Below, piece after piece: positions 4,859-60,833 of a DNA stretch of 62,794 nt. The stretch comes from Pseudomonadota bacterium (GTDB taxonomy: Bacteria; Pseudomonadota; Alphaproteobacteria; Rhizobiales; Hyphomicrobiaceae). A model generated the notes under the pieces. The model ran no database searches, had not been told where the DNA came from, and worked only from the letters and a program-made list of their open reading frames with translations. Each line of letters begins with the position of its first letter. Within the stretch, counting starts at the first letter, position 1. A program made the translations under genes and the position numbers. Location of the stretch: the NCBI GenBank assembly GCA_018242255.1, contig JAFECH010000370.1, forward strand, positions 1 to 62,794, written 5' to 3'.

Positions 4859-4991
4859 TTGTATCCAACTTGGAAACAGAGTGCTCGTACATTGGTGTAT
4901 TGAGCGATTTTCGTCAACGAGCCATATTATGGGGGTCGGACGGCTGAAGCCTCCGCACAAAGCGAATTTCAAGGTGTCTGGAGGCACGCAT

Positions 4992-5591: not shown

Positions 5592-5603
5592 GCCTCATCA
5601 ATT

Positions 5604-5632
5604 CGGACCGTTGCCGAATTGGCGACGGTCCG
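5604..5632 (+). terminator. Intercistronic stem-loop after wrbA
   Basis: CGGACCGTTGCC at 5604-5615 pairs with GGCGACGGTCCG at 5621-5632 (11 of 12 pairs) around the loop GAATT. No U-tract follows, so it is more likely a partial terminator, processing site or 3' stabiliser than a full stop. It lies in the 133-base gap between wrbA and the dioxygenase gene, the only long gap of the cluster. Confidence 0.55.
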
Positions 5633-5724
5633 CTTCCGCCGGCTCCGATTGAAGCGCCGGATCGACTCTCCACATAGCAGTTCAACTTAGCGACATCTCG
5701 TGCGAACGAGAGAAAGGACAAGCC

Positions 5725-7283: not shown

Positions 7284-7307
7284 CGGGCTCACAGGACAGG
7301 TGTCAGA

Positions 7308-7949
7308 ATGGACTTCGACTTCGAAACGCTTGCGGCAGACGATCGCTACAAGCTTCTAACGAGCACAATCGTACCGCGGCCGATTGCCTGGATAACGACG
7401 CGAGCGACGAACGGCGCCCGCAATACGGCGCCGTTCAGCTTCTTTAATGCCATGGGCAAGGATCCGGCGCTACTCGCCGTCGGCATCATGACCGACGGCG
7501 ATGGCAGCATGAAAGACACTGCACGAAATATCCTCGACACGGCTGAGTTCGTCGTCAATCTCGTCCCGCGCGCGGCGGCGAAGGCGATGAATTTAACGTC
7601 GCTGGATGCACCGCCAGATGTCGACGAGCTCGCGTTGGCTGCGCTAGAGACTGTGTCGTCTTTAAAAGTGAAGCCCGATCGGATTGTGATAAGCCCAGTG
7701 GCGTTTGAATGCCGACTTCATACTCCGCTCGTCTTTTCAAACCAGTTGCTTGCTATCGGCGAAGTTTTGCAGGCGCATATCGCTGACGACATGATGCTCG
7801 ACCCGGCGAAGCTGTACGTCGACACTCCGAAACTTGACCTTATCTCGCGTCTGCATGGCCGCGGGTTGTATGGAACGACGGAGACGGCGTTTCAGATGCA
7901 GCGCCCTCAGCCTTATGAGGCGCTCGAAAAGGAAAAGGCGCGAGATTGA
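7308..7949 (+). CDS. Flavin reductase family protein (FMN-binding split barrel)
   Basis: The 213-residue protein matches the flavin-reductase-like FMN-binding family: IVPRPIAWITT, NTAPFSFFNAM and LLAVGI near the N-terminus, and a conserved GRGLYGTT toward the C-terminus. It probably reduces or carries FMN with NAD(P)H. It follows the esterase after 24 bases and ends the cluster. A role in supplying reduced flavin to WrbA or in reducing quinoid compounds is plausible but unproven. Its last codons form one arm of the terminator hairpin shared with the convergent dps gene. Confidence 0.87.
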   Translation: MDFDFETLAADDRYKLLTSTIVPRPIAWITTRATNGARNTAPFSFFNAMGKDPALLAVGIMTDGDGSMKDTARNILDTAEFVVNLVPRAAAKAMNLTSLDAPPDVDELALAALETVSSLKVKPDRIVISPVAFECRLHTPLVFSNQLLAIGEVLQAHIADDMMLDPAKLYVDTPKLDLISRLHGRGLYGTTETAFQMQRPQPYEALEKEKARD

Positions 7950-7960
7950 CCTCGCGCCTT
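7935..7960 (-). terminator. Terminator of dps, shared with the flavin reductase gene
   Basis: AAGGCGCGAG (7935-7944) and CTCGCGCCTT (7951-7960) form a perfect 10-bp stem around a 6-base loop. Read on the minus strand the stem is followed by TTCCTTTTC, a T-rich tail fitting an intrinsic terminator for dps. On the plus strand it overlaps the last codons and stop of the flavin reductase gene and has only a weak T tail. Confidence 0.7.
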
Positions 7961-7992
7961 CATCGGATTTCCGCTGATGAGCGAGCCTGACG

Positions 7993-8520
7993 TCACGCTT
8001 CGTGCGGGATGTTCCGGGTCGATTCAAAGAGGAACCATACGCGGCGTTCGGCTTCGTCGATCCAGTTCTCAAGCAGACTTGCCGTCGCGACGTCGCCGTG
8101 TTCGTCGCAAAGATCGTGAACCTGGCGCATTTCGTCAGCTAGCTGCAGATTATCGCCGCGAAGTTCTGCCAGCATATCATTCGGCGAAACGAAATCGGCG
8201 TCGTTATCGAGAATGCGCTTCTGGCTGTTGATCTGGCCGATCGAACGGATCGTCGTACCGCCAAGCTTGCGGGCGCGTTCGGCAATATCATCGGTCGCAG
8301 CGAAGATTTGCTCGCCTTGCTCATCGAGGAGAAGGTGATAGTCGCGGAAGTTCGGTCCAGACATGTGCCAATGAAAGTTCTTCGTCTTGATATATAGCGC
8401 GAAGAAATCAGCGAGAAGCGCCGACAGCGCACCGGAGATATCCTTGATGGCATTGTCGGAAAAGTGCGATGGCGTGTCGAGGGCCGCCTTGCGCCGCGAT
8501 TTGGTCGTATCCGCTTTCAT
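7993..8520 (-). CDS. dps: DNA starvation/stationary-phase protection protein Dps
   Basis: Dps (175 residues) forms a 12-subunit shell that oxidises Fe(II) with hydrogen peroxide and stores the iron, protecting DNA. The inter-subunit ferroxidase residues are visible: His in NFHWHMSGPNF, then Asp and Glu in LLLDEQGEQIF. The start is basic (MKADTTKSRRK), which may help DNA binding. AAGAGATA precedes the ATG at 8520. The gene is monocistronic with its own terminator. OxyR or stationary-phase control is usual but not shown by the sequence. Confidence 0.93.
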   Translation of the reverse strand: MKADTTKSRRKAALDTPSHFSDNAIKDISGALSALLADFFALYIKTKNFHWHMSGPNFRDYHLLLDEQGEQIFAATDDIAERARKLGGTTIRSIGQINSQKRILDNDADFVSPNDMLAELRGDNLQLADEMRQVHDLCDEHGDVATASLLENWIDEAERRVWFLFESTRNIPHEA

Positions 8521-8609
8521 GTTTATCTCTTCCTTGGCTTTGCGTTACGGGGGGAGTCAAAAGGATTTTGCAATTGTTCAGGGGGGCAACATCACTGCTT
8601 TGATTAAGG

Positions 8610-9005
8610 TCACCCCGCAGCCTCATCTATGACGACCTTAATCAATGAGCACATTTTCTCCAGGGTTGGCTGGATAGCAGGTGAGAGAAGATATCTTTTC
8701 GCGAGCCAAGCCAGATCCTGATACGAAATCCATGTCTCAGAACTCTCGTCTTGCCAGACCAATGCTTTTAAAGGCAGGTCCAGGCCGATTGTCTGTTCGC
8801 TTTGCATAAGCAGCGTGCCCGCCTTCGGGTTTCCGAAAAATAGCACTTCTGTCGACCGGAGATCGAGGCCAACGGCCGTTGCGGCCGCTGCATGATCTAT
8901 GCGTGAAAAAACCGTCATGCCATGGTTGCGCACACTCGCCGCCAACCGGTTGGCCGTCTCCTTGGGTCCATGGGAGCTTTGGAGCGTGATTAATCCTTCG
9001 AGCAT
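8610..9005 (-). CDS. DUF302 domain protein
   Basis: A 131-residue protein of the DUF302 fold. It has the typical start LITLQSSHGPKETANRL, the core MTVFSRIDHAAAA and the strand TEVLFFGNPKAGTLLM, ending with LPLKALVWQD and YQDLAWLAKRY. No signal peptide is seen. The function of the family is unknown; members have been linked with metal or redox stress only by context. I use the ATG at 9005 because the conserved domain begins there and a purine-rich GGAAGAAG lies upstream; the longer in-frame extension is low-complexity. Confidence 0.82.
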   Translation of the reverse strand: MLEGLITLQSSHGPKETANRLAASVRNHGMTVFSRIDHAAAATAVGLDLRSTEVLFFGNPKAGTLLMQSEQTIGLDLPLKALVWQDESSETWISYQDLAWLAKRYLLSPAIQPTLEKMCSLIKVVIDEAAG

Positions 9006-9212
9006 TTGCCGACGCTTCTTCCGGTTCCGACGCGGGATATTCGGGCCGACACTGTTATCGCCGACCGTCGGCGATTGTCCACCGGTGCCGACACAAAATC
9101 GTGCATTCAGAAAAATTGCGACAAATGCCACCACTTTGCTGCTCTCTCCCGTGACGACCTCTGGGCTGTCGTCTAATCGTATCGGGACTAATCCGATTCA
9201 ATGGGGTGAAGA

Positions 9213-9926
9213 ATGCTGCCGCGCCTTGTGACACTACCCGCAGTGCCAGCCGTATTGAGCATTACGGCAGGGTATGTCGACACTTCGAGCTTCCTCGCGC
9301 TGCATGGACTCTTTACTTCGCATGTGACGGGCAACTTCGTTACGCTCGGAGCGTCCCTCGCGGAGGGGGCGTCCGATACGATCGCCAAAATATTAGCGCT
9401 GCCGGTGTTTTGTGCCGCAGTGTTTGCGACCCGGCTGCTACGCTTTCAGCTTGAGAAAAGCGGATTGCCGATCCTCGGCATCTGGCTTTCGCTTCAATTC
9501 ATTTTGATGACGATTGCGGGCGGCCTTGCTGTGTATTATGGCCCTTTCCCCGACGCGGACACGGTTCCAGCCCTCGCAGTCGGTCTTATTCTGGTCGTGG
9601 CAATGGCCATTCAAAATGCATTCCATCGCATTCACCTCGCCAATTACCCACCGACCACCATCATGACCGGGACGACGACGCAAGCGATGCTTGATCTCGC
9701 TGATCTCTTTCGCGGCGTTCCAGCCGAATCGAAGCCTGCGGTAACGGCACGGGTCACGAACCTACTCAACGGCATCGTGGCCTTCGCGCTTGGGTGTGCG
9801 GCAGCAGCCGTGACTTATGCCCACGTCAAGGAATGGGTTTTCATAGGCGCTCCGATCTTCGCGGCGATGACGACCGCGTTCTACGTTCGCGAAAAGCTTA
9901 TCGGCGCTCAAACTGGCCCGGCATGA
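9213..9926 (+). CDS. YoaK/DUF1275 family membrane protein
   Basis: A 237-residue integral membrane protein with about six predicted helices. The family signature is present: AGYVDTSSFLALHGLFTSHVTGNFV near the N-terminus, the internal Q-N-F-R stretch AIQNAFHRIHL and TTIMTGTTTQ. The family is widespread and its transport substrate is unknown. It stands alone, divergent from the DUF302 gene and convergent with a TetR gene. The ATG at 9213 is preceded by GGGGTGAAGA, a fair ribosome binding site. Confidence 0.85.
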   Translation: MLPRLVTLPAVPAVLSITAGYVDTSSFLALHGLFTSHVTGNFVTLGASLAEGASDTIAKILALPVFCAAVFATRLLRFQLEKSGLPILGIWLSLQFILMTIAGGLAVYYGPFPDADTVPALAVGLILVVAMAIQNAFHRIHLANYPPTTIMTGTTTQAMLDLADLFRGVPAESKPAVTARVTNLLNGIVAFALGCAAAAVTYAHVKEWVFIGAPIFAAMTTAFYVREKLIGAQTGPA

Positions 9927-10003
9927 GAGATCGCTATTCGGAAGCGACGGAACGGTGACGCGGATCTATGATGTGCACCAAATGGTCTAGCGGCCCACCT
10001 TCG

Positions 10004-10597
10004 TCACGCGTTCAACAGGGCCGCCCGCGCCGCCTGCATGATTTCGTCGGAAACGGGAGAACCTTTTGTCGACCGCGATAGAACCAACGCGCCGACGAGC
10101 ATGGCGATCTGCGCCAGAGCGTCTTCGCGGGCTGCCGCTTTGTCCTTCCGTTTGCGCGATAACAGCGGCGTCAACCGCTCGACCATCACATTAAACCCGG
10201 CGGCAAATGCCGTTCTGATCTGGCCTTTGGGGTTTTCGCGCGCCATATCTCCGCACATGGCAGCGGCTGGACAACCGAGGCCGATTGCATCTCGGTGTGC
10301 TTTCGTAGTGTAGCGTTTGATAAATTCCGTGCGCGCTGCTTTTTTGTCGGCGCCGTTGCGCTGTTCGATCCCGTCGTAGATGCTGCGGCGTTCCTTAAAC
10401 GCACGTTCGCAAGCTTCTGCGACAAGAGCCTCCTTTGAATCGAAATGACCGTAAAAGCCGCCGTGCGTCAGGCCGGCTTCCGCCATGACTGCGGGCACGC
10501 TTACGCCGTCGATGCCGTACTCAAGAAAGAGCTTGGATGCTGCATTGAGAACGTCTTCGCGGTGTTGATCTGCTTCCTTGCGCGATACTCGCGGCAT
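10004..10597 (-). CDS. TetR-family transcriptional regulator
   Basis: The 197-residue protein has a TetR DNA-binding domain at residues 12-60 (AASKLFLEYGIDGVS, VMAEAGLTHGGFYGHFDSKEAL). Its C-terminal ligand domain contains GCPAAAMCGD, a feature of the group related to electrophile-sensing repressors such as NemR/YxaF. Cysteines in that stretch could sense thiol-reactive compounds; that is inference. It lies 18 bases after the thioesterase stop, so the two genes are probably co-transcribed and it may repress that operon and the divergent thiolase. Confidence 0.9.
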   Translation of the reverse strand: MPRVSRKEADQHREDVLNAASKLFLEYGIDGVSVPAVMAEAGLTHGGFYGHFDSKEALVAEACERAFKERRSIYDGIEQRNGADKKAARTEFIKRYTTKAHRDAIGLGCPAAAMCGDMARENPKGQIRTAFAAGFNVMVERLTPLLSRKRKDKAAAREDALAQIAMLVGALVLSRSTKGSPVSDEIMQAARAALLNA

Positions 10598-10615
10598 TCT
10601 CTTTTCTCCTTGGGC

Positions 10616-11113
10616 CTAAGCTTTGGCCGACGCGCCGTTGCGTTGCCCCATGACCAAGCATGTCTCCGTCCCGTGAGCCACAAGGTTCCCTTCCTTGTCG
10701 AAGACCTTCCCTTCCGAGCTCGCGATGCGACCGCCGCGCGAAAGCACTATGCCTTCACATCGCAGGACACCCGTCGACACAAAAACCGGACGCACGAAAT
10801 TGGTCTTGAGTTCGAGCGTTGTATACGATTGTCCGGCGGGCAACGTTGACTGAATAGCACACGCCATCGCCGTGTCGAGAAGGGTTGCGATCCAGCCTCC
10901 GTGAACGGTCCCCATCGGATTGTAGAATTGCTCAGTCGGCGTGCCTTCAAAGACGATGCGGCCAACCTCAATATCCTTTGGTCGAATTCCGGTCGCATGA
11001 CTGAATGGCGGCGCAATGAGCGCACCATCCCGCAGCGCAACAAGAAAATCCAATCCTGACATCGCCGCCGCAACATGAGGCGAAACAATCCCCGTTTTCA
11101 TCGGCTCAGCCAA
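10616..11113 (-). CDS. PaaI-type hotdog thioesterase
   Basis: A hotdog-fold acyl-CoA thioesterase of about 165 residues. The conserved NPMGTVHGGWIATLLDTAMA (Asn, His-Gly-Gly, Asp) and the strand YTTLELKTNFVRPV identify the PaaI group; the end KVFDKEGNLVAHGTETCLV is typical. The start is uncertain. A TTG at 11113 has AGGAGA about 9 bases upstream and is preferred; an ATG at 11101 and in-frame starts up to 11215 are alternatives, the last being only 31 bases from the thiolase start. It is in one transcript with the TetR gene. Confidence 0.85.
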   Translation of the reverse strand: MAEPMKTGIVSPHVAAAMSGLDFLVALRDGALIAPPFSHATGIRPKDIEVGRIVFEGTPTEQFYNPMGTVHGGWIATLLDTAMACAIQSTLPAGQSYTTLELKTNFVRPVFVSTGVLRCEGIVLSRGGRIASSEGKVFDKEGNLVAHGTETCLVMGQRNGASAKA

Positions 11114-11246
11114 TTTCGCTTTCTCCTGCCGCGCGTTGAGGTGCGTCAACATTCGGCGTTGCCCGCCGCCGTCGTTACTTGCATTACGTCCATCATATAT
11201 TATGTCGGCCATCATGAATAGCCAAGACGGCGGAGGAGCCCTACCA

Positions 11247-12437
11247 ATGCGTCAGGACCCGATTGTCATCGTAGCTGCAGTGAGGACGCCTCTCGGGCGG
11301 TTTCTGGGCGATCTTGCGCCGCTCCGGGCCTCCGAACTCGGCGCGCACGCTATCCGCGCAGCGCTCGAACGCGCGAAACTGGTGCCGGAGAAGGTCGACG
11401 AGGTCCTTTTCGGGAATGTGCTGACGGCGGGACAGGGGCAGGCGCCAGCACGGCAAGCCGCACGAGCCGCCGGGTTACCTGACGCAACCAGCGCAACGAC
11501 CGTGAATAAAGTTTGCGGGTCGGGCATGAAGGCGACGTTTCTCGCGCATGATCTGCTAACCGCCGGCTCGGCTGACATCGTTATATCGGGCGGCATGGAG
11601 TCGATGTCGAACGCACCCTATCTGCTGCAGAAGGCTCGCACCGGTTTTCGCGTCGGCCACGGCCAAGTGCTCGATCACATGCTGCTCGACGGTCTAGAAG
11701 ACGCCTACGAAAAAGGTCGCAGCATGGGCGATTTCGGCGAGGCGACGGCTGAAGCGTACCAATTCACGCGAGCCGATCAGGATGCGTTTGCGGTGGAGAC
11801 CCTGACGCGCGCGCGAGCTGCTGTTCAGTCTGGTGCATTTAAGGCGGAAATCGCACCGATAACCATCGCAACCAAGGACGGCGAAAAGGTCGTGACCGAT
11901 GACGAGAACCCGCTCAAGGTCTCACCAGAGAAAGTTCCGAAACTGAAGCCCGCGTTCCGGCCGAACGGCACGATCACGGCTGCGAGTTCGTCGGCAAATG
12001 CAGACGGCGCGGCGGCGCTCGTTCTTACGCGCCGCTCGCTTGCCGAACGTGAAGGGCTACCTATCCTTGCCGAGATCCGCGCTCACGCGACGCACAGTCA
12101 GGAACCGGCATGGTTCACGACGGCACCTATTCCCGCCATTCGCAAAGCCTTGGCAAAGGCCGGGTGGGAGGCTGGAGATGTCGATCTATACGAGATAAAC
12201 GAAGCATTCGCGGCGGTCGCGATGGCGGCGCAGAAGGATCTTTCGATCCCGCGGGACAAGCTCAACGTCAACGGCGGGGCATGTGCGCTCGGGCATCCGA
12301 TCGGCGCAACCGGCGCACGCCTGATCGTAACTTTACTGCACGCACTCGAACGTCAGGGAGCAACTAAAGGCATCGCTTCGGCTTGTATCGGCGGCGGCGA
12401 AGCGACTGCGATCGCCATCGAGCGCGTTAAGCATTGA
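11247..12437 (+). CDS. Acetyl-CoA C-acetyltransferase (thiolase)
   Basis: A 396-residue degradative/biosynthetic thiolase that joins or cleaves acetyl-CoA units. Catalytic features: nucleophile Cys in VNKVCGSGMKA, the GHPIGATGAR histidine, and the final Cys in ACIGGGEAT. Length and order match AtoB/PhaA. The ATG at 11247 is chosen because GGAGGAG (11232-11238) is correctly spaced and conserved sequence starts immediately. No phaB or phaC is nearby, so a role in PHB or ethylmalonyl-CoA supply is possible but not shown. Divergent from the thioesterase-TetR pair. Confidence 0.93.
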   Translation: MRQDPIVIVAAVRTPLGRFLGDLAPLRASELGAHAIRAALERAKLVPEKVDEVLFGNVLTAGQGQAPARQAARAAGLPDATSATTVNKVCGSGMKATFLAHDLLTAGSADIVISGGMESMSNAPYLLQKARTGFRVGHGQVLDHMLLDGLEDAYEKGRSMGDFGEATAEAYQFTRADQDAFAVETLTRARAAVQSGAFKAEIAPITIATKDGEKVVTDDENPLKVSPEKVPKLKPAFRPNGTITAASSSANADGAAALVLTRRSLAEREGLPILAEIRAHATHSQEPAWFTTAPIPAIRKALAKAGWEAGDVDLYEINEAFAAVAMAAQKDLSIPRDKLNVNGGACALGHPIGATGARLIVTLLHALERQGATKGIASACIGGGEATAIAIERVKH

Positions 12438-22930: not shown

Positions 22931-23191
22931 TTACGATTTCGGCGGGGCGGACATGCGGCGCACAGCGGTGGTCGTGAGGTAGGCGCCGACAAAGGCCGCT
23001 AGACAAAGGCCGATTACACCCGGCAAGCCGTTATTCAGGTTGGCCGCTAAAAGCCCTTCGTAGGCAATCGCGGCACCGATCACCCCACCGATTGCAGCGA
23101 TAACGGTATTCGACACGCCGCGGAGCGACAAACCGTAGAGAATGCCCACAATCAGGCCCGGATACATCGAAGGCCAGAAATGATCGTCCAT
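22931..23191 (-). CDS. Small hypothetical membrane protein
   Basis: An 86-residue protein with three hydrophobic, glycine- and alanine-rich stretches (YPGLIVGILYGLSL, VIAAIGGVIGAAIAY, GVIGLCLAAFVGAYL). The ATG at 23191 is supported by GGGAGGGG a few bases upstream. I do not recognise a named family. It lies upstream of the GT21 gene, 161 bases away and co-directional. Confidence 0.65.
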   Translation of the reverse strand: MDDHFWPSMYPGLIVGILYGLSLRGVSNTVIAAIGGVIGAAIAYEGLLAANLNNGLPGVIGLCLAAFVGAYLTTTAVRRMSAPPKS

Positions 23192-23615
23192 GATTCCCCT
23201 CCCAGGCTTCACCTGCCCGAGCTAACACCCGAGCCGCCGGAAAGGGGTTGATACCAATCAATTCGGCTCGGTACGAGATGGTCGCGCAGACGACGTCTCG
23301 TCGCGGTTGATCTCAAATCCTAGACAAGGAGACCGGCAGCACCGAATTGGCACCGCCGGTCTCAAATCCTGTTCGCGGAAGCGACGACCATGTTCAGCGA
23401 GCGGAAAACATTGCCAGTCCGGGTTTAAGATCCCGCCTAGAAATCCGGCGATGGGCCGACCGCGGCGAGTTCTGACATGCGGTCCTGCGACTGCTCATCG
23501 CGAGACGTCGTTATGATCAGCGAAGACCTTTTCCCGGTATGAACGCGATTTGTTTGCTGTGGGCGCCGAAAATCGTGCTCATTCTCGGGCACGACTATGC
23601 GATATCGATTTTCCG
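23192..23615. other. Gene-free stretch with a hairpin and a short direct repeat
   Basis: No credible gene is seen. It contains an inverted repeat, GAGACCGGC (23329-23337) and GCCGGTCTC (23355-23363), 9 perfect pairs with a 17-base loop. A 9-base direct repeat CTCAAATCC occurs next to each side of this element (near 23312 and 23361). It could be a small structured RNA, a REP-like element or a relic; nothing decides. Confidence 0.35.
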
Positions 23616-31106: not shown

Positions 31107-31502
31107 TTAGCGGGGCATCGGCCAACTATCGAAATCTTCGAATTCTCCGGTCGTGTTTCGGCTATCTGCCGTCTGTCCGGTCAATCGCTGCGCGACGTCC
31201 GCTAGCTTGATCGTCTTCGCGGCGGTCGCGACATCCACTTTCCATCCGGGCAGCGCGCCGTCGGAAAGTCCGTCCAGAAAATCGGCGACAGCGTCTAAGT
31301 GTTGGCAGAGCCGATCAAGATTTTGCAGTTCATAAATGGACTGCGAGCCACCAAATGCTCCGGCAACGACAAGATTACCGATCAAGCTCTGCAGATCCGC
31401 GGCGGAGCCAGCCAGCATCCTTACTTCGTCGGACGTGCTGCGCAGAGCATCGGAAACGGGCACGTTTGGAGAGCGCTGGATTTCGCCGTTGTAGTTCTTC
31501 AT
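31107..31502 (-). CDS. cheT: CheT-like chemotaxis protein with a DxxxQ motif
   Basis: A 131-residue helical protein, last in the che operon directly after cheD, the place of cheT in Sinorhizobium. It has two helix stretches (EVRMLAGSAADLQSLIGNLV and ELQNLDRLCQHLDAVADFL). The second holds Asp63-x-x-x-Gln67, the spacing of the catalytic DxxxQ of CheZ-type CheY-P phosphatases. From memory, S. meliloti CheT has been described as a small protein with such a motif acting in signal termination and adaptation. I infer the same here. The ATG at 31502 overlaps the cheD 3' end by 22 nt (shared 31525 boundary is not crossed by the domain). Sequence similarity is not verified. Confidence 0.7.
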   Translation of the reverse strand: MKNYNGEIQRSPNVPVSDALRSTSDEVRMLAGSAADLQSLIGNLVVAGAFGGSQSIYELQNLDRLCQHLDAVADFLDGLSDGALPGWKVDVATAAKTIKLADVAQRLTGQTADSRNTTGEFEDFDSWPMPR

Positions 31503-31524
31503 TTTTATCCCCGGCTTCGCGCCA

Positions 31525-32073
31525 CTAGAAAAGTTCGAGTTCGCCGGCGTTGTCGACGAGCGATGCAACCGGCAGCTTCACTGGACGTTCCGACTCCGTC
31601 TGTCCCGTCAGCATGATTTGCCGCGCGCGACCGGACACCGGCCAATACTGGATGCGCCTTCCTTGTTCGCCACCCGTACTGCCGCCGACATAGGTGATCG
31701 CTTCGGCTTTGAGAAAACGCATCGCAAAATCGGCGTTGTTCTTGCCTATGTCGGACCGAGACTTCACCGTACGTGCGCCGCCGAATAATTTAGCTTCGAG
31801 GCGATCGCGTCGTGCGCCGGCTTTCAGCAGACCGTTCACGAGCAGCTCCATTAAATGGACACCCATGCGTTCGGCCTCGCCACGCTGCGTACTTCCGAGC
31901 TCGCCGGGCAGAAGAAAGTGATTTATCCCGCCAACGCCGGCCAACGGGTCACGAATGCACGCCGCCACACACGATCCGAGGATCGTCGTAACCATGATAT
32001 TGCGGTCGTCAGTAACGAAGAATTCGCCCTGAATGATATGGACCCGCTTTTCCGTACTCGGCGCGGCCGTCAT
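31525..32073 (-). CDS. cheD: Chemoreceptor glutamine deamidase CheD
   Basis: CheD (182 residues) deamidates chemoreceptor glutamines and can also bind phosphatases. The papain-like catalytic set is seen: Cys in [15 protein letters not shown], His in [10 protein letters not shown], and a Thr/Ser region further on; KLFGGARTV and [12 protein letters not shown] are family stretches. The ATG at 32073 overlaps the cheY stop (ATGA), which rules for this start over the longer in-frame extension. Confidence 0.93.
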
Positions 32074-32459
32074 GTCAGCTTTCCAACGACGGCCTCGATG
32101 CACGTCTTCAATTGCGGAACCGAGAACGGCTTGGCCAGAAAGTTGTTGAGGCCCCACTTCTTGCCTTCGTCAATCAGCGCTTTGTCACCCTTCCCCGTCA
32201 CCAGAATGAAACCGACCTTGCTCGTCGGCGCGTGCTGGCGCAGGGCGCGAAGAAGCTGAATACCGTCGATTTTCGGCATATTGAAGTCCGAGATAACGAG
32301 ATGGCAGGGCGCCGTCATCATCATCTTCAGACCTTCTTCGCCGTCTTTCGCAACCTTGAACGACTTCAAGCCGATCTGATCGAGTCCATCGGTCAGGAGC
32401 GCTCGGCTGACGGACGTATCGTCGACAACCAAAATGGATAATTGCTGCATTGAGGGCAT
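32070..32459 (-). CDS. cheY2: Chemotaxis response regulator CheY (cheY2 position)
   Basis: A single receiver domain of 129 residues. Acidic pocket VVDD (12-14), phospho-acceptor Asp58 in [12 protein letters not shown], Thr in ILVTGKGDK and Lys in FLAKPFSV are all present. Between cheB and cheD it takes the place of S. meliloti cheY2, the regulator that slows or stops the motor. Two cheY genes and no cheZ fit the alphaproteobacterial phosphate-sink scheme. Confidence 0.92.
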
Positions 32460-32471
32460 GGCTGAAGACTC

Positions 32472-33515
32472 CTAGTGACCTTTGTTCTTTGACGTTTCTG
32501 CAATGATGGACGAAGCCAATTTATCGAGCGGAAGCTGCCTTTCCACTGCGCCTATTTCGAATGCTGCTTTGGGCATGCCGTACACGATGCAACTCGCTTC
32601 GTTTTGTCCGAATGTCTTGGCGCCAGCTTGGCGCATCGACAGGAGACCTGCGGCGCCGTCTTTGCCCATGCCGGTCAAGATGACACCAACCGCGTTGGCT
32701 TTGCAGACCTTGGCGACAGACTGGAAAAGAACGTCAACCGACGGGCAATGGCCGTTCACGCGGTCGGCCGTCTTCAATCGGCAGCGCAAGTCTGCCGAGA
32801 CTTCGAGATGCTGCGCGCCACCCGGCGCCAGGAAAACGTGACCCGGCAGTAGTTTCGCGCCGTCGGTCGCCTCTTGCACTTTCGGAGCGCACAGTCTGTC
32901 GAGGCGGCTTGCAAAGCTGCGCGTGAAGGTCTGCGGCATATGCTGCGTGATGACGGTCGGCGGACAATTCCCAGGAAACTGCGAAAGAAGCGACATAAGT
33001 GCTTCCACGCCCCCGGTCGACGCGCCAATAGCAAGGACGCGGCCATCGGATTGGTAGGAATCGAGCGGCACGCGGACATTCGACGAGTCCGGTGCATGGA
33101 TGTCCGACTTAACCAGCGGACGAACGCGCGCCGAGGCTGCAATTTTGACTTTGTACGGAAGCTCTTCGAAGCTGTGTTCGTTGCCAGGTCGTGGCTTCTC
33201 GATACAATCGACGGCGCCGATTTCGAGCGCCTGAATTGTTTCGTCGGCACCGCGGCCTGTCAGCGTCGAGACCATTATCACCGGCATCGGCCGTAGACGC
33301 ATGATCTTCTCAAGAAAATCGATGCCGTTCATGTTGGGCATCTCGACGTCAAGCGTGACGACGTCGGGATTAAGCGCCTTGATGGCCTGACGCGCCTGAA
33401 TGGGATCTTCAGCTTGCCCAACGACTTCGATATCGGGATCTTTCGTCAACGCCGTAGCGATCAGTCCTCGCATGGTCGAGGAATCGTCGACAACAAGGAC
33501 TTTTACTTTCTTCAT
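32472..33515 (-). CDS. cheB: Protein-glutamate methylesterase CheB
   Basis: CheB (347 residues) removes methyl groups from chemoreceptors. An N-terminal receiver domain has Asp56 in [11 protein letters not shown] and Lys in CIEKPRPG; a linker of about 35 residues follows. The catalytic triad of the methylesterase is Ser in [12 protein letters not shown], His in [11 protein letters not shown] and Asp in LTGMGKDGA. Start overlaps the cheR stop by four bases. Confidence 0.96.
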
Positions 33516-34402
33516 GACGCTTTGCCCCCCTTCTTACGATAGGTCGTGATGCCGTCAGCCAACAATATTGCCGCGGCCGGCCCTGCCACGCGTTCCGAAT
33601 GTCCGATGTAGAGAGCACCGTCGTCTCGCAACAACCCCGCCAATCGACTCCAAATAGTGTTTTGCGTTTCACGATCGAAATAGATCGCGACGTTTCGACA
33701 GAAGATTGCATCGAATGGGCCGTGAAACGGCCACGACCCCATCAGATTGAGTTCGCGAAACGATACGAGCGAGCGCGCCTCCTCGGCGACGCGCATAATG
33801 CTACTGTCGCCGCCTGGAGCTACTTCCAACCACTTGCTTCGTAGGTTCGACGGAATGTCCTGAAGTTCTTCTTTTTGATAGCAGCCCGCTTTGCCGCGCG
33901 CGACAACATGAGGATTGAGATCCGTTGCCAGAATTCGAACATCGAGAGACGCCGCCTCGGGGAGGACGGATAGCACCGTCAGAGCCATGGAATAGGGCTC
34001 CTGGCCGCTGGAGCAGGCCGCCGACCACAACCTGATCCGTTTGCCGCGACGCGCAGCATCGGCCAGGGGAGCGATGATTTCAGTGCGCAAATGGTCGAAA
34101 TGGTGCGATTCGCGGAAGAAACGCGTGACGTTGGTTGTCAGCGCGGCAATCATGCTGTTGCGCTCTTCGTCATTGTCACGAACGGTCGCGCAATAGTCGG
34201 TAAATGTCGCGATGCCAAGAGCGCGCAGGCGTTTGGCCAGGCGGGAATAAACGAGGGTCGCCTTTGATTGCGGCAGGTCGATGCCTGCTTCTTCCTTAGC
34301 GATGCGCGCGATCTCCCGGAAGTTTACATCGGAAAATGCAAACTCACCTGTCACGAGCGCACCTGACGGCGCCGCGGCGGATCCTCGTGGCTCCAGCGTC
34401 AT
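33512..34402 (-). CDS. cheR: Chemoreceptor methyltransferase CheR
   Basis: CheR (296 residues) methylates receptor glutamates with SAM. It has the helical N-terminal domain ([15 protein letters not shown]), the [14 protein letters not shown] stretch, SAM motif [24 protein letters not shown] and the [11 protein letters not shown] segment. The receptor gene of this operon ends in a pentapeptide that can tether CheR. Start overlaps the cheW stop. Confidence 0.95.
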
Positions 34403-34866
34403 GCGGCGGCCTTTTCGCTGATCGGCAAAACGCTCTCCAATGCGACGATGCTGATCATGCGTCCGTCGACGGGATACACGCCCCTCACAAACGTCTTGGC
34501 GAGCTCAGAGGCAATATCAGGCGTCGGCTGCATTGCAACCTCCGATACCGTCAGGATATCCGACACTGCGTCAACGAGGAGGCCAATGACCTGCTGGTCA
34601 ACCTGAACGACGATGATGACGCTACGCGGCGTCGGCTCGGTCAAACCCAGCCCAAAGCGCATCGCGAGATCGACGATCGGCAACACCGCGCCGCGCAGAT
34701 TGATCACACCGCGAACATACGGCGGCGCATGAGGAAGCGGCGTCGCCTGCGTCCAGCCGCGGATCTCGCGGACGCCCATAATGTCGATACAGAATTCCTG
34801 GTCGCCGACACAGAACGCGACGAACTCAAGATTGACGTTTTTGGCGGGGGAGCTCGCGTCTTGCAT
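34399..34866 (-). CDS. cheW: Chemotaxis coupling protein CheW
   Basis: CheW (155 residues) couples CheA to receptors. Family elements: [23 protein letters not shown], then [23 protein letters not shown], and [15 protein letters not shown]. The ATG at 34866 has AGGAGG eight bases upstream; the frame upstream of it runs into the cheA 3' fragment and is not used. Since the attached CheW-like domain of CheA is cut off here, this is the only separate CheW in the cluster. Confidence 0.94.
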
Positions 34867-34871
34867 GGTTG

Positions 34872-35348
34872 TTATCCTCCTGTCCCGTAGCACAGCTCTT
34901 CGCTTCGAAGGGTGTCGAACGAGCTGGTAAGCAAAGCATCCACATCGAGAATAAGAGCGACGCGACCGTCTCCGAGAATGGTGGCCGCTGCTATTCCGGC
35001 GACAGTGCCATAGTTCGTCTCAAGGCTCTTGATGACGACCTGGCGCTGATCCTGGATGGAGTCGACCAGCAGGGCATTGCGTGTGCCGCCGCCGGTTTCG
35101 ACTAGGATCGCAACACTATTTTCGGGATCGGCCGGCGTATCGCGAAAGCCAAGCTGCGTGCCGACGTCAATGAGAGGAACGAATGTGTTCCGGATCGACA
35201 TCACCCGGCCGTCTTTGCCAAGTCCGTGAAGCTCGGTCTTCTTGGGCTTCAATGTCTCAACGATGGCGGTTAGCGGCACCACCAGCGTCTGACCGGCAAC
35301 GGAGACGGCCATGCCGTCAAGGACCGCGAGAGTTAGTGGCAAGCTCAT
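34872..35348 (-). CDS. CheA C-terminal fragment: detached CheW-like (P5) domain
   Basis: From the ATG at 35348 a 158-residue polypeptide holds the last ATPase strand ([14 protein letters not shown]) and the whole CheW-like domain ([61 protein letters not shown]). The ATG overlaps the end of the first frame by 32 bases, so reinitiation is possible, but only a weak ACAAGG lies upstream. Confidence 0.7.
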
Positions 35349-37056
35349 CGAGAACGTCGAACCTTGTCCAGGCCGTGAAGAAATCGCGATGCGCTACGAT
35401 GGAACGCTTCACCACGTCCATGCCGACACCTCGCCCGGAAATGCTTGAGATGGTCGCCGCAGTCGAGAAGCCGGGGAGGAAAAGCAGGTTATCGATGTCG
35501 TTGTCCGACAATTGTACGTCTGGCGATATCAAGCCCTTCTTGATTGCGGACGCACGAACTTTGGGACGATCGATGCCGGCGCCGTCGTCGGATATCTCGA
35601 TCACGATCCGGCCCGATCGATGCGCAGCGCTCAAGCGAACGGTTCCCTCAGGCGGCTTGCCCGCGGCTATACGTGCTTCCGGCGATTCAATGCCGTGATC
35701 CACTGCGTTGCGGATCATATGCGTCAAAGGCTCGGCGAGCCGCTCGACGACGGTCTTGTCGACCTCGGTCGCTTCGCCATCCGTCTTGAGGCGTACCTGC
35801 TTGCCCGTCGCATCGGCGACTTCGCGAACAATGCGCGACATGCGCTGGAACAGCGGCTTCACCGGCTGAGCGCGGATCGCCATTACGCTTTCTTGTATTT
35901 CTCGCGTCAGCTGCTCAAGCTCCTCGAGTCCGATTACGATCGACGACGAGCCGGCGAGGTTTGCTTCGACGACGCGCTGCGAGAGCATCGCCTGATTGAT
36001 CACTAGTTCGCCGACAAGGTTGATCAGGCGATCAACGCGATCAAACTCGACACGGATCGTGGTCTGATTAGGGACGGCGGCGGCCTTGGGACTTTCCACG
36101 GTCTGAGCGGTCTGATGAGCAGGCTCCGGTGTCGCGGCCGGTTCTGCAGACGTTTCGGGCTGCGGTTCCGATTGCGAAGCAGCCGCTTCGGGTTCGGGAT
36201 TCGATACTTCAGCGGCAGATGCTTCGGATTCCGATCCGGACGAGCCTCCAAGCGCCATTGCGAGAAGCGCTGCTATATCAGCATCAGAAACGCCCGGTTG
36301 GCCATCCGTCGAGATGTTAATTTCTGCTTCGCCATCGACAAACTCAAAGACTTCACGAACCGCCTCGATGGGCTGTTCCGATGAAAGCTTGATATCCCAA
36401 GCGAGATACGCTCCTTCGGCCTCGATGGCGTCAAGAGTCGGGACGGCCGTTGCATCGCATGTGACTTCGACGCTGCCGAGGCGCGACAATTCACGGATGA
36501 TAAGCGCCGCTTCGTTTGCGTTGGCATAAAGCTCGGGGCGCGGCGCGAAACGAACATGATATTCGTGCATCGGCGGCGCTTCAGGCTCCGTCGCGATAGC
36601 CGGCATCTCGAAATCAATGACCGAAGGCTGGAAATCTATAGCTTCTTCAACTTCGTCTTCTTCGTTGGTGGCCGTCAGCGCTTTGACGTCGGCAGCGATC
36701 GATGCATACGACGACTCGTCGATGTCCCTGCCATCGCGCGAGGCTTCCACAAGATCGGCCAGAACATCGGCCGCGCGGAGCATCGGCTTCATCACATCAG
36801 CCGTTGGCGCCAGCTTGCCGCTGCGAACATGATCGAGCGCTGTTTCGAAGGTGTGCGCGAATTGCACGAGTGCGGTCAGCTTGAATGCGCCGGCGCCGCC
36901 CTTGATCGAATGAACCGCACGGAAGACGGCGTTGACTGTTTCGGAGTCCGCAGCTCCCTCGTCCATTGCGAGTAGGCCCATCTCCATTTCGGAGAGTTGC
37001 TCCTCGCACTCCTGGAAGAAGGTCTGGCGGATGGCCGCCATCGTATCGACAGTCAT
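35317..37056 (-). CDS. cheA: CheA N-terminal part: Hpt, dimerisation and ATPase domains
   Basis: A 579-residue product. The Hpt domain has the phospho-acceptor His49 in RAVHSIKGGAGAF. A Glu/Ser/Pro-rich linker (about 265-330) precedes the dimerisation domain (RVDRLINLVGELVI) and the ATPase with N box THMIRNAVDHGIE, G1 ISDDGAGID and G2 GRGVGMDVVKR. The last 25 residues are out of frame and not CheA-like. Kinase activity may persist; receptor coupling should be lost. Confidence 0.9.
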   Translation of the reverse strand: MTVDTMAAIRQTFFQECEEQLSEMEMGLLAMDEGAADSETVNAVFRAVHSIKGGAGAFKLTALVQFAHTFETALDHVRSGKLAPTADVMKPMLRAADVLADLVEASRDGRDIDESSYASIAADVKALTATNEEDEVEEAIDFQPSVIDFEMPAIATEPEAPPMHEYHVRFAPRPELYANANEAALIIRELSRLGSVEVTCDATAVPTLDAIEAEGAYLAWDIKLSSEQPIEAVREVFEFVDGEAEINISTDGQPGVSDADIAALLAMALGGSSGSESEASAAEVSNPEPEAAASQSEPQPETSAEPAATPEPAHQTAQTVESPKAAAVPNQTTIRVEFDRVDRLINLVGELVINQAMLSQRVVEANLAGSSSIVIGLEELEQLTREIQESVMAIRAQPVKPLFQRMSRIVREVADATGKQVRLKTDGEATEVDKTVVERLAEPLTHMIRNAVDHGIESPEARIAAGKPPEGTVRLSAAHRSGRIVIEISDDGAGIDRPKVRASAIKKGLISPDVQLSDNDIDNLLFLPGFSTAATISSISGRGVGMDVVKRSIVAHRDFFTAWTRFDVLDELATNSRGP

Positions 37057-37074: not shown

Positions 37075-37440
37075 TTATGCTGCGACGCGGCGAATGGCTG
37101 CGATCAATTTGGTCGGTTCGAAAGGCTTCACGATCCAGCCCGTGGCGCCGGCTTCCTTGGCGCGCAGCTTTTTGGCCGCATCGCTCTCCGTCGTGAGAAC
37201 GAGAATGGGAACGCGGCGATAGCGGCTGTCCTTGCGAACGGCTTCTATCAGCCCGAAGCCATCCATCTTCGGCATGTTGATGTCGGTGACGATGACGTCT
37301 GGCGTCGCCGTCTGCAGGACTTCGAGACCATGGACACCGTCTTCGGCCTGCAGGACATTGTATCCAGCCTCTGCCAGCGCCATCCGCAACATATCACGCA
37401 TGGTTCGAGAGTCGTCGACGGTCAATATCGTCTGTGTCAT
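37075..37440 (-). CDS. cheY1: Chemotaxis response regulator CheY (cheY1 position)
   Basis: A 121-residue receiver domain with TVDDS, phospho-acceptor Asp53 in IVTDINMPKMDG, Thr pair in LVLTTESD and Lys in WIVKPFEPTKL. Directly before cheA, it matches S. meliloti cheY1, which serves as a phosphate sink that drains phosphoryl groups back from CheY2 through CheA. It overlaps the STAS gene stop by four bases. Confidence 0.93.
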   Translation of the reverse strand: MTQTILTVDDSRTMRDMLRMALAEAGYNVLQAEDGVHGLEVLQTATPDVIVTDINMPKMDGFGLIEAVRKDSRYRRVPILVLTTESDAAKKLRAKEAGATGWIVKPFEPTKLIAAIRRVAA

Positions 37441-37862
37441 CCGGCCATTCCTTCGAAAGAGATCTGCTCGCGTGTCAATCCGACAAGTGTGATCGTGTCG
37501 AGAAACTCACTGCTAGGATTCGTCACCGCATAGCTCTGGCCGTCGGCCTGCCATGTCCGCGCTGCCGCGATCAGGATCTGAACCGCCTGCATTCCCGTTC
37601 GCCGCACCTGGCCAGCATCGACGACCAGCGGCGAACCTCGGCGCTCCAACAGCATGTTTTTGACCGTGATTGCGCACGCCGAATCCAGAGTTTCCGGCAG
37701 CACTAGCGGTCCCAGATTCGTCGGCTCCGGAAGTTCGGCGACCGCGGTTACCGTCTCCTCGATCGGTGCCGCCTTTCGAGCGGTTTTTGCCGTCGATGTC
37801 TTGGCCTTCCCGACTTTGGAGGCGGCCTTCTTCCGCGGCTGTTGTGCTCTCTTTCGGGCCAT
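37437..37862 (-). CDS. STAS-domain protein of the che operon (cheS position)
   Basis: The 141-residue protein has a Lys/Ala/Arg-rich tail at the start (residues 1-33, unstructured, basic) and then a STAS domain (LPETLDSACAITVKNMLLERRG, PLVVDAGQVRRTGMQAVQILIAA, EFLDTITLVGL). The usual phosphorylatable Ser is replaced by Thr or Gly in RRTGMQ. In S. meliloti the small protein at this locus, CheS, helps CheA bind CheY1 and speeds phosphate removal. Equal function is inferred from place and domain. The basic tail is an unusual addition. Confidence 0.75.
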   Translation of the reverse strand: MARKRAQQPRKKAASKVGKAKTSTAKTARKAAPIEETVTAVAELPEPTNLGPLVLPETLDSACAITVKNMLLERRGSPLVVDAGQVRRTGMQAVQILIAAARTWQADGQSYAVTNPSSEFLDTITLVGLTREQISFEGMAG

Positions 37863-40195
37863 TAGAATTCCTCCCAGCCAGCATCGGCTGCCGCGGCTAC
37901 ACTGTGGCGGCTACCTCCACCGGATGCGACTTTCATCTTCGCAGCGGCCTGCGCGAGGCGAGCGGCCGGCTTCGGCTGCTGCTCTCGGCGCGGCGTCATT
38001 TCGACGACCGTTTCGGCGCCCGTCCTGAAGCGACTGACGAGACGCACCAGTTCCTCGGTCTGCTGAGCGAGCGTCTGTGTGGCGGCCGTTGCTTCCTCGA
38101 CCATGGCCGCGTTCTGTTGGGTTACTTGATCCATCTCGTTGACGGCCGTGTTGACCTGTTCGAGGCCGTGGGCCTGCTCGTTAGCGCTTGCCGCAATGCC
38201 CGTGACGATCTCATTGATTTCCCCCACCTGCGAAACGATGCGGGTCAGCGCCTGACCGGTTTCGCCGACGAGTTGGACGCCTTGCGCGACCTGACCGGTC
38301 GATGCGGAGATCAATCCCTTGATCTCTTTGGCGGCCTCAGCAGAACGTTGCGCCAGAGCGCGGACTTCTGAAGCGACTACGGCGAAGCCACGGCCCGCGT
38401 CGCCGGCACGTGCCGCCTCGACGCCAGCATTGAGTGCGAGAAGGTTCGTCTGGAACGCGATCTCATCGATAACGCCGATGATCTGGCTAATCTGCTTCGA
38501 GGACGTCTCGATACCGTTCATCGCGGCGATGGCCTTGCGTACGATTTCACCGCTCTTTTCGGCATCAGACTTTGCGACGGACACCGTATCACGAGCATGG
38601 GTGGCACCTTGCGCCGTCTTGCCGACAGTATCGGTGATCTCCTTAACGGCCGCCGCTGTCTCCTCGAGGCTTGCGGCCTGGTTCTCAGTGCGACGCGACA
38701 GATCATCAGAGGCTTGCGAAATTTCGTCTGTGCCAAGCCTGATGCTTCCGGCACCTTTCTTTACAAGCTCGATTGTGCTCCTGAGTTCAGAGGCCGCGCT
38801 ATTGAAGTCTTGCTTCAGCTTTGCGAATTCGGGAGCGAATTCAGCATACACTGTGGTTTCCAGATTGCCTTCGGCGAGTTCGGAGAGTGCCGTTCCCAGA
38901 GACGCGACCACAACGTTGATTTGATTCTCCGCCTCGAGCTTTGCGGATTGAGCCGCTTCCAGCTGCCCCATCATCAGGTTCATCTGGGTGATGATGGCCT
39001 CGTATTCACTGATAACGGTCTCAGTAATGCGATGCGTGAAATCTCCGCTCGCGATGCGTTCCGCCGCCGCGGTGAAGGCCGCCATGAAGCGTTCGTGCTC
39101 GCGACCGTAGTGTTCGCTCTGCTCCTGCTGCTCCTTAGCAGCGGCAACGCTGGCGTCGGTCATAGATTTGTTTTCAAGCAGTGCTTCCTTGAAACGAGCC
39201 AGCGCGCCAGCGATCTTGCCGTTCTCGTTGGTGTCGGCGAGATAGGGAATGCTTATGCTCAGATCCTTGTGGCTCAGCTTCTCCATTGCTCCGACGAGAT
39301 CGGACAGGCGCCGCGACGTTCCCTTCGAGATGAATGCGACGAGAACGATCGCAAGAATTGTTGCCGCAACCAAAAGACCGAGTGTCCAATAAAGTGCACG
39401 CGCATCAGCAGCTGCTCGCTTCTCGGCAATTTGAATAAATGCGTCGCCCAGCGAACCTGCTACCGTTGCCACCATATCGTTGGCGTCGGCGACAGAGCTT
39501 TGGAACGTGCCAGCCAGTGCCGAACGCTCATAGTTCGCAGCTTTAATTTGCGACGCGACGCCGTCGAGGGTTGCAACGAGTCGGGCCGGCTTTTCACCAA
39601 TTGAATGCTTGATGTCGCCTGTGTCATCACCGGCAAGCAGCTTGCGCAATGAAGCGTTCAACTTACCGTTCGTGCGCGACAGTACCGCATATTCCATCCC
39701 AAGGTTAGCTTGATCGTCTGCAGTAGGCGGCGCCGACAGCGTGTCCTGTAAGTCGACGATAGCTTGTTTCACCCCTGAAAGGCGCTGAATAAAAACGTCC
39801 TGCGCATAAAAACCTTTTGCTGATGAATCGGTTGCGAGGCCAGCGGCATTCGAGATCTGATCCAGAAGCTCGAGACCAGTATGGACCTGCTCGCTCGCCG
39901 ATTTTGCGTTCTGAAAAGCAGTCAGCGCGGATTCAACTCCCAGCGATTTGGCGCCGCTCGCGAGCTCACCGCTCTCTCGGTCTGCAGCGACGTCATTTTT
40001 GCCTGCCGGCATCTCCGCCCAAACGGCCGACGCCAGTTTTGCACCGTCGACCTCGAGATTGGTCGCGTCTATCTCGCGAAGTTTATTATCTGCATAGAGA
40101 TAGAGTTGAGCGAGCGACGGAATAAGGAAAACCGAAGCGATTAGCGCAAGCCGACGGGGCATCGACCATTTGCTATTAATATACTCAACGACCAT
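37862..40195 (-). CDS. Methyl-accepting chemotaxis protein with C-terminal tether
   Basis: A 777-residue transmembrane chemoreceptor, first gene of the che operon. TM1 spans about 15-35 and TM2 about 275-297; the periplasmic part between is helical and not a recognised sensor. A HAMP domain and a second HAMP-like part ([19 protein letters not shown]) precede the signalling hairpin with the tip [20 protein letters not shown]. The protein ends in GWEEF, a W-x-x-F tether pentapeptide for CheR/CheB. The ATG at 40195 is chosen as GAGGAG lies 11 bases upstream. Ligand unknown. Confidence 0.92.
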
Positions 40196-40720
40196 GGCGT
40201 GCTTCACTCCTCGTATTTTTCGTATTCGTTTTGAGATGACGGCATTGCGCGTTCGCGGTGAAGGATGAATTTCGTTTGATGGGCGAACGATCGATTAGGT
40301 GCGCGCGACTTCCTTCTCCGCGTTCCACGTACGCGGGAGAGCGATGATATTTCGCTTATTCAAAGATGCGCTGAGGCTACCGGCAAATGCCGGGCGCAAT
40401 CGACCGATTTCCATGAAGGGTGTTCCTGCTCGAATAGGCCGGAACATGTCGGATCTGGGCCGACACGGCTGCGCGGCTTCATGCCTTTGATTGCTTAATC
40501 AAGCTGCCGTGCAATCACCCTATTGGGCAATTCTATCGAATTCGTTTACGACGTAAATTTATTTCCCGGTAATTTAATAAATCTCGAAATATCTCCCAAA
40601 CGGCAATTTTCATTCAATAAGAGACTTTCGCATCCACTCACCCAAACTGAGAATGTGCCCCCCCCAATTCTAATATGGGAAATATTGAATCGTTTTCAGG
40701 CAATTGTCGGTGGGCGATAG
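40196..40720. other. Gene-free AT-rich region upstream of the che operon
   Basis: These 525 bases have no convincing gene. The part from 40500 to 40700 is clearly AT-richer than its surroundings (long runs of A/T such as AATTTAATAAAT). Noted are a small inverted repeat TTGATT-gctt-AATCAA (40487-40502) and a palindrome CCGGCA-aa-TGCCGG (40380-40393). The che operon promoter should lie near 40200-40350. Confidence 0.45.
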
Positions 40721-46512: not shown

Positions 46513-47568
46513 TTATCGGAGGTAATCAAGAATACTGAGTTTATTGAGCTGGCTCGTCAGCGAGTACGCCGCTTGAAGGGCCGTTGAAATTTGCGTCAGT
46601 TGCGTCGTGACTGCTGCAGTATCGACCTGCTCCAGATTGACGATCGACTTCGTCAGGAAATCGACTTGCGAGTCGATCTGACTGTTCGCGTCGGTCACAC
46701 GCTGTTGCGTCACGCCTAGCGCCGACTGAACTTGCGTGAGGCCGCCCGTTACGTTTGCAGTGAGCTCTCGAGCCTTCGAGACAATCGCCTGCTGCGTACC
46801 GCTATTGAGTTTGCCATAGCCCAGGCCGGAAATCATCGCGTAGGCTTCGGCCAACGACCGGAACGTGCCATTGTCCGCCGTCACCGAAGTGTCGATGATT
46901 TGACTCCGGGATATCCGGCTGCTCACTGGCTTATCCGACGCGGCCGACCATGTGCTCGACCAATTAGCGTCCGAGAACAAGTTTGCGAACTCATTGTTGA
47001 GAAAGCCGGTCATATCGGCAGGCGAAATACTAGAGACGTTCGGATCGTCCGGGCTCATTCCGAATTTGGCGGTGAACGCGGCGGTAACTGCCTGTGCGCC
47101 GGCTGATGGCGGCGTCCCGAAATAATCTTCCATGGGCTGCACGTCTGAATTGATGCCCGCGAATAGGAATTGGCCGTCGAGCGAGGCGTTGAGCTGATCC
47201 TGAAGCGTCTGCATTCCAGACTTGGCCGACTGGATCAGCGTATCCTGAGATGTCGCGGCCGTTTGCGCAGTGATAAGGCTCGACAAGAAATCCGACGTAC
47301 TTTTCGACAGCGTATCGAGCGCAGATTGCGAAGCGTCGAGGCGATTGAGCACAAGATTGTTTGAGCCCTGGATGGCCTTGATCTGATCCATATCCTGGCG
47401 CATCGAAATGGTGATACCCGTCGTCGCGCCTAGGGTTATACCGACATCGGCGTGCCTCCCCGTGGCAATCTCCTTCTGAGCGTCGACGAGTTGCTGCTGG
47501 TATCGGGCTATCGATCGAAGCGTTTCATTCGAGATCGACGCGGAGGAGATGAATGAAGTGGAAATCAT
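46513..47568 (-). CDS. flgL: Hook-filament junction protein FlgL
   Basis: FlgL (351 residues) is the second junction protein between hook and filament. The N-terminal flagellin-like helices (ASISNETLRSIARYQQQLVDAQKEIATGR) and the C-terminal coiled coil (TKSIVNLEQVDTAAVTTQLTQ) are present. No signal peptide, as it is exported by the flagellar system. Five bases separate it from flgK. Confidence 0.92.
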   Translation of the reverse strand: MISTSFISSASISNETLRSIARYQQQLVDAQKEIATGRHADVGITLGATTGITISMRQDMDQIKAIQGSNNLVLNRLDASQSALDTLSKSTSDFLSSLITAQTAATSQDTLIQSAKSGMQTLQDQLNASLDGQFLFAGINSDVQPMEDYFGTPPSAGAQAVTAAFTAKFGMSPDDPNVSSISPADMTGFLNNEFANLFSDANWSSTWSAASDKPVSSRISRSQIIDTSVTADNGTFRSLAEAYAMISGLGYGKLNSGTQQAIVSKARELTANVTGGLTQVQSALGVTQQRVTDANSQIDSQVDFLTKSIVNLEQVDTAAVTTQLTQISTALQAAYSLTSQLNKLSILDYLR

Positions 47569-59670: not shown

Positions 59671-60615
59671 CTACCGGAAGAGCGAAAGAATGTTCTGGCT
59701 CGACTGGTTGGCGATGCTGAGAGCCTGAACGCCGAGCTGCTGCTTGACCTGCAAGGCCTGCAACTTCGTCGATTCTTGGTTCATGTCAGCGTCCACCAAC
59801 TGTGAGATGCCCGTCGTGATCGAGTCCATTAGCGACGACACGAAGGACGTCTGCAGATCGATGCGCTTCTGGGCGGAGCCGAGGTTGGTCGCGGCTGTCG
59901 TCATGGACTGGTAGGCCGAATCGACGCCGGCGATGTACCCCTTGAGGGTCGCCTGGTCGGTCGGGCTGTCCGTCAGCGAGCTGATGTCGATGTTCATAAC
60001 CGACGTGCCGCCCGTCGTCACAATGGCGCCCGTGGACGAACGCTGCGAGTCGAGGATGCCGCCTGCGCCAGAAGCAGTCGAGCTGTCGAAAAGGATCGAC
60101 GTCGCGGTATCGACGCTGATCGTGCCGACAGAAACAGTGCCGTCGGAGGCGCGAGAGAACGACGAAACGATCGTCTTAGTCGCGCTGTAACCGGAGGTCG
60201 CCGAATCGACCGATACCCAGTTCTCGCCTGAGAAGCTTGCCGAGTCGGCGATGCCCTTCAGCTGATCCTGGAGCTGCGTGATTTCCGACTGAATCTTTTT
60301 GCGGTCAACACCAGGCGAGGCGGCCGCGACGAGTTTGTCCTTGATCTGGCCGACGAGATCGATCGACTGGTTGATCGCGTTGTAGGCGACGTCAACGGTG
60401 CCTTTGCCGAGACCGAGAGCGTCCTGAACGGTCGAGAGAGCCGAGTTGTCCGACTTCATCGTGGTCGCAATCGACCAATATGCGGCGTTGTCCGAAGCGC
60501 TCGCAACCTTCAAACCGGTCGAAATCGCATTCTGCGTCGTCAGCATATCTTTGGAGGTCTGGCGCAGCGACTGCAACGCGGTCATTGCGGAAATGTTGGT
60601 ATTAATACTGCTCAT
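59671..60615 (-). CDS. fliC: Flagellin
   Basis: A 314-residue flagellin, the filament subunit. D0/D1 N-terminal helices (SINTNISAMTALQSLRQTSKDM, STGLKVASASDNAAYWSIATTMKSD) and the C-terminal helices (AQKRIDLQTSFVSSLMDSI, LQALQVKQQLGVQALSIANQSSQNILSLFR) frame a short variable middle. It is of the compact alphaproteobacterial type. The ATG at 60615 is chosen since AAGGG is 8 bases upstream; an ATG at 60621 is possible. Only one flagellin gene is in the window. FlbT and FlaF presumably act on it. Confidence 0.95.
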   Translation of the reverse strand: MSSINTNISAMTALQSLRQTSKDMLTTQNAISTGLKVASASDNAAYWSIATTMKSDNSALSTVQDALGLGKGTVDVAYNAINQSIDLVGQIKDKLVAAASPGVDRKKIQSEITQLQDQLKGIADSASFSGENWVSVDSATSGYSATKTIVSSFSRASDGTVSVGTISVDTATSILFDSSTASGAGGILDSQRSSTGAIVTTGGTSVMNIDISSLTDSPTDQATLKGYIAGVDSAYQSMTTAATNLGSAQKRIDLQTSFVSSLMDSITTGISQLVDADMNQESTKLQALQVKQQLGVQALSIANQSSQNILSLFR

Positions 60616-60833
60616 GCCCATGTCCCTTGTCCTTTTACTCAGCACAAAACGCTAATGGGACATACCGGATCTACCGGCTTGACAGATCGGCGTCATGCCC
60701 GTGGCGCGTGTTCGCTGCCACCCTGTCATCGGCAAAGTAGATAGATGAGAATCGTTTCGTAATGGTTAATTTTAATGGCTGGGATGTTAATAAATTTGCT
60801 CAGAGTTGGGTTTTAATCCCGCACTCCGGCAAG
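60616..60833 (-). promoter_or_regulatory. Flagellin promoter and leader region
   Basis: This 218-base gap between fliP and fliC should hold the strong flagellin promoter and the leader that FlbT may bind. A TGG-N10-GC pair (60720 to 60706 on the minus strand) weakly resembles a sigma-54 site, placing a start near 60693. CCGG-atcta-CCGG (60665-60677) is a short inverted repeat in the leader. Neither is proven. Confidence 0.4.

Follow-up and report, generated by a model that had tools for sequence, protein, structure and literature searches.

The window analysed here, a stretch of 62,794 nucleotides, corresponds to contig C300 (positions 1-62794) of a draft genome of 404 contigs and 4.28 Mb, estimated to be 97.11% complete and 1.15% contaminated; the genus appears to be Hyphomicrobium. 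Its minus strand carries a che operon in the order methyl-accepting protein, STAS, response regulator, cheA, cheW, cheR, cheB, cheY-like, cheD and a small gene. The first three, the operon partners upstream of cheA, occupy positions 37075..40207; Pfam matches identify the MCP and the STAS_2 protein, while the cheY-like response regulator was assigned from its own sequence and is 99% identical to an ORF of G007, the nearest relative with an intact cheA. Downstream of cheA lies an intact cheW (34399..34893, minus strand; PF01584, E 2.6e-39), which gave no failure in the integrity comparisons with G007 described below. The remainder of the operon (31107..34402, minus strand) comprises cheR, cheB, the cheY-like gene, cheD and the small gene, and the start codons of the last two are uncertain. 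The small gene following cheD (31107-31568) has no Pfam match and is 83% identical to G007 over 134 residues, and its true start probably lies further downstream than its longest open frame implies. Flagellar genes share the contig with cheA, including those for a FlgE-like protein, FlgK, a FliK-like protein, FliF, a MotB-like protein, an FHIPEP-family protein and two flagellins, and the flagellar genes identified show no break in relation to G007. The two flagellins (46513-47568 and 59671-60645) differ from each other, the one at 46513 scoring weaker against the Pfam flagellin model.

The cheA gene itself is divided between two reading frames, as an earlier note on this sequence had claimed. 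The first frame (35317..37056, minus strand; 579 codons) encodes P1 (Hpt), the linker/P2 region, the P3 dimerisation domain and a truncated P4 (HATPase_c). Its codons 1-555 are those of cheA and match the relatives, the last true cheA codon ending at 35392; the final 24 codons, after SIVA, are out of frame and run to a TGA at 35319-35317. Pfam matches cover residues 9-107 (Hpt), 332-394 (H-kinase_dim) and 442-557 (HATPase_c). P1 and P3 are clearly present (PF01627, E 1.7e-18, and PF02895, E 1e-17, respectively), but the HATPase_c match only spans profile positions 4-88 of 111, so that a complete in-frame P4 is missing. Among 17 PDB sequences matching this first part, the 10 that match P4 all end at residue 553, and the other seven match P1 only. 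The second frame (34872..35393, minus strand) picks up with the codon starting at 35393 and contains the end of P4 (RIAISSRPGQGSTF) followed by the whole CheW-like P5, which is thus not fused in frame with the rest of cheA. Two further details given in the earlier note hold as well: the second frame is closed on its upstream side by a TAG on the minus strand (35396-35394), and P5 has an ATG of its own (35348-35346), from which an ORF of 158 aa (34872..35348, minus strand; PF01584, E 3.1e-28) overlaps the first frame by 32 bases and could give a P5-only product.

Compared with G007, the joint between the two frames (35389..35396, minus strand) is 11 bases shorter. G007 has a one-contig genome, and its cheA, 90% identical to that of the window, is an open frame of 735 residues; at the protein level, identity is 90% over residues 1-555 and 96.5% over the second part. 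The 11-base alignment gap at the joint accounts for the three codons of the conserved LGG turn plus two bases over which the frames now overlap. The cheA alignment also has a one-base gap at 36436 and another at 36442, which cancel each other. In G007, the joint reads GCGC, seven bases and again GCGC, while in the window a single GCGC remains (35391-35394). The missing bases (about 11), the lost LGG turn and the short GCGC repeats were all part of the earlier description of this joint and are recovered here, with the precision that both repeat copies are found in G007 and only one in the window. In its intact form, as examined in G007, the joint presents a direct four-base repeat with an 11-base spacing at the ends of the deletion. 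Among the distinct 11-base deletions possible in the G007 cheA, only 5 of 1,619 would have an end repeat of at least four bases, as would 281 of 60,082 over 80 kb of G007. A repeat search set to a minimum of six bases does not list the four-base GCGC, for which it is too long. Assuming that the ancestor resembled G007 at this position, the footprint at the joint would be that of a slipped-strand deletion. We reject phase switching, as slippage would be unable to restore the lost part from the single GCGC left at the joint.

Among the same-genus orthologues compared, none shares the gap of the window. A cheA orthologue was found in 16 of 21 same-genus genomes (excluding the window's own) and in the other five there was none at E 1e-60. 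Fifteen of these orthologues match from residue 1-3 to residue 555, and their open frames are 718-846 residues long; the sixteenth (G009) is fragmented, yet it covers the joint and has the LGG turn. Consequently, the turn is present in all 16 same-genus orthologues covering the joint and the gap in none of them, the opposite of the conservation across species that the earlier note had named as the observation that would speak for a natural split. In a wider set of 120 loci, the motif preceding the turn was seen in 113, including three that are the window itself. The other 110, which include duplicates and second cheA copies and are not independent genes, all end the turn with a glycine (LGG, IGG, LRG or LSG types); the seven loci lacking the motif were left out. 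The window cheA is otherwise alike in domain content and sequence to the Class II CheA (P1-P5) of G007 and of the other same-genus genomes, with collinear surroundings in the case of G007; the difference is that the gene forms one frame in these genomes and two frames, broken inside P4, in the window.

Could the two parts nevertheless work as separate proteins, as the earlier note had envisaged? According to this idea, a CheA lacking P5 and a stand-alone P5, translated from its own ATG, would cooperate in trans. The position of this ATG at the start of the domain, within the 32-base overlap, is compatible with it, as is the conservation of the P5 frame (6 residue differences in 155 codons with respect to G007). 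Also in its favour are the non-classical CheA homologues CheA3 and CheA4 of Rhodobacter sphaeroides, which have missing domains: in PMC2829493, CheA3 is described as consisting of P1 and P5 only and CheA4 of P3-P5, and domain-reduced CheA homologues are termed apparently very rare. In R. sphaeroides, CheA functions are spread over more than one protein, a likeness that holds for the window only if its split worked, and what is retained there are P1 and P5, or P3-P5 (PMC2829493), whereas the window cheA is cut inside P4. This cut leaves the HATPase match ending at position 88 of the 111-position profile, whereas the intact paralogue encoded elsewhere in the genome is matched up to position 110. 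Moreover, the ATG of P5 is also found in 14 of 15 intact relatives, indicating an ordinary internal codon, and by eye no clear ribosome-binding site precedes it, only an AAGG 13 bases upstream. No promoter-like site was found in 34800-35700, and BLASTP gave no useful similarity between P5 and the adjacent CheW. We reject a natural split conserved between species, given its absence from the 16 same-genus orthologues together with the cut inside P4. The proposal of two working proteins consequently finds little support, and we regard a functional split as very improbable. A variant in which both frames are translated, P5 acting as a separate adaptor within a two-part CheA whose P4 lacks its tail and might be helped in trans by the second CheA of the genome (on contig C298), seems to us slightly less probable still.

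A programmed translational frameshift could also, in principle, join the two cheA frames. Geometrically it is possible, because a +1 or -2 shift at 35391-35394 enters the second frame past its upstream stop. Nevertheless, the joined product would still be devoid of the LGG turn, a recognised slippery site was not seen by eye, and no such shift is required in the 15 same-genus orthologues whose frames are full-length. We therefore reject a programmed shift, on account of its LGG-less product and of relatives that manage without it, and give it hardly any credence.

The alternative that deserves the most attention is that the break does not exist in the organism, being due to faulty sequencing or assembly or to a minority variant of a mixed sample, with the actual strain having an intact cheA. 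The fragmented draft, with its estimated incompleteness and contamination, leaves room for this. The soundness of the sequence was assessed by comparison with G007, to which the window is collinear in three blocks with 84-88% DNA identity. Among 62 hand-picked window genes, 12 have a net gap length relative to G007 that is not a multiple of three, cheA being one of them; we place the gaps of the other 11 at gene ends, in over-extended starts or in a stretch that does not form a single frame (22931-23316). A lenient test, in which a gene passes when one frame without a stop extends over at least 90% of either partner, was applied to 61 genes after dropping 22931-23316. It was passed by 59, the exceptions being cheA and 31107-31568; the latter aligns without a change of frame, and its failure comes from the G007 frame, which is open far upstream.

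In a stricter two-way test, with the 90% limit on the query, 47 of 59 G007 frames passed in the window and 53 of 61 window frames passed in G007, the two pieces of cheA not being among the eight failures of the latter direction. Judging from their coordinates, five of the failing G007 frames reflect differences in start sites or over-long frames (G007-string positions 6559, 7654, 29884, 38061 and 55981), and six do not represent genes, as they lie against other genes or show poor conservation (11489, 30261, 30886, 36837, 51771 and 52861). By the same judgement, the eight window-frame failures correspond to stops or breaks in the start region. The cheA gene is the sole failure of the stricter test with two long parts (555 and 173 residues) in different frames. 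The short frame at 22934-23316 (the counterpart of G007-string 29884) shares 95% identity with G007 over 93 residues; one base differs upstream of it, probably ahead of the true start of the gene. On the strength of these comparisons, we reject the idea that the che and flagellar region is decaying as a whole.

Since no other gene is clearly broken with respect to G007, the window sequence is not rich in errors, which weighs against an erroneous break in cheA. The nature of the change points the same way: the loss of 11 bases at a four-base repeat is not typical of base-calling errors, and a repeat of four bases is too short for an assembler to collapse. An error or a minority variant is accordingly considered unlikely, although it remains the main rival to a genuine deletion and is clearly less improbable than the functional split.

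The substitution pattern does not separate these two readings. Polarising the cheA changes with nine outgroup sequences, the window branch has 63 synonymous and 19 non-synonymous private changes and the G007 branch 23 and 11 (Fisher p 0.35). By domain, with borders that were set by us and are approximate, the window branch shows 14 synonymous and one non-synonymous change in P4, and 14 and two in P5. These branch counts give no sign of relaxed selection in cheA, although with such small numbers a mild effect could go unnoticed. The break is accordingly either very recent or a sequence error, both of which fit equally well. In total, over 34872-37056, the window branch has accumulated 82 private cheA changes and the G007 branch 34, and both look constrained.

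Taking the comparisons together, we consider it probable that the main cheA of this strain has suffered a recent loss-of-function deletion at the strain level. What the sequences show directly is the break in the frame and the repeat at the G007 joint; the slippage, its recent occurrence and an inactive CheA are our interpretation of them. Most likely, slipped-strand mispairing between the two GCGC copies, seven bases apart, would have generated an 11-base deletion in recent times, removing the LGG turn, close to where the P4 kinase domain ends, and shifting the frame. Translation of CheA would then end after 24 wrong residues, so that the HATPase fold would be incomplete and P5 absent. CheA needs the final portion of P4, and P5, for binding ATP and for coupling to CheW and the receptors. 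The truncated protein is thus expected to fail both in holding ATP properly and in its coupling to CheW and receptors and, as the first part is without the end of the HATPase domain, its kinase activity should be lost.

The break looks like an ordinary mutation of a known kind rather than a new type of split protein. Indeed, the window cheA resembles the frameshift pseudogenes produced by short deletions between direct repeats, in which one repeat copy and the spacer are lost and the frame is shifted in a gene that is otherwise undamaged, and we see no notable difference from this class. A frameshift in a Hyphomicrobium cheA is named in no title or abstract opening among the papers listed by our literature searches, which is no proof of its absence from print. 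If the deletion is real, it would provide a clean example of slippage silencing the main chemotaxis kinase in a strain whose flagellar genes identified on the same contig are without a break. The finding matters little beyond annotation: cheA ought to carry a frameshift label in this assembly, and the presence of a che operon alone is insufficient to infer motility or chemotaxis.

The proposal that the strain is chemotaxis-defective, also contained in the earlier note, is plausible for the pathway of the main cheA, but it need not mean the loss of all chemotaxis, given a second cluster with an intact cheA in the same genome. This second chemosensory cluster is located on contig C298 (L127, 20001-40000) at 4863-11814, and contains an intact CheA (658 aa), two CheW, a 4HB receptor, CheR and CheB; its CheA is the paralogue whose HATPase match was used above for comparison. 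A second CheA copy was detected at E 1e-60 in G003, G007 and G010 as well as in the window's genome, and G009 has two pieces. Two more CheW-like domains are encoded outside both che clusters, on contigs C370 and C318 (L002 and L003).
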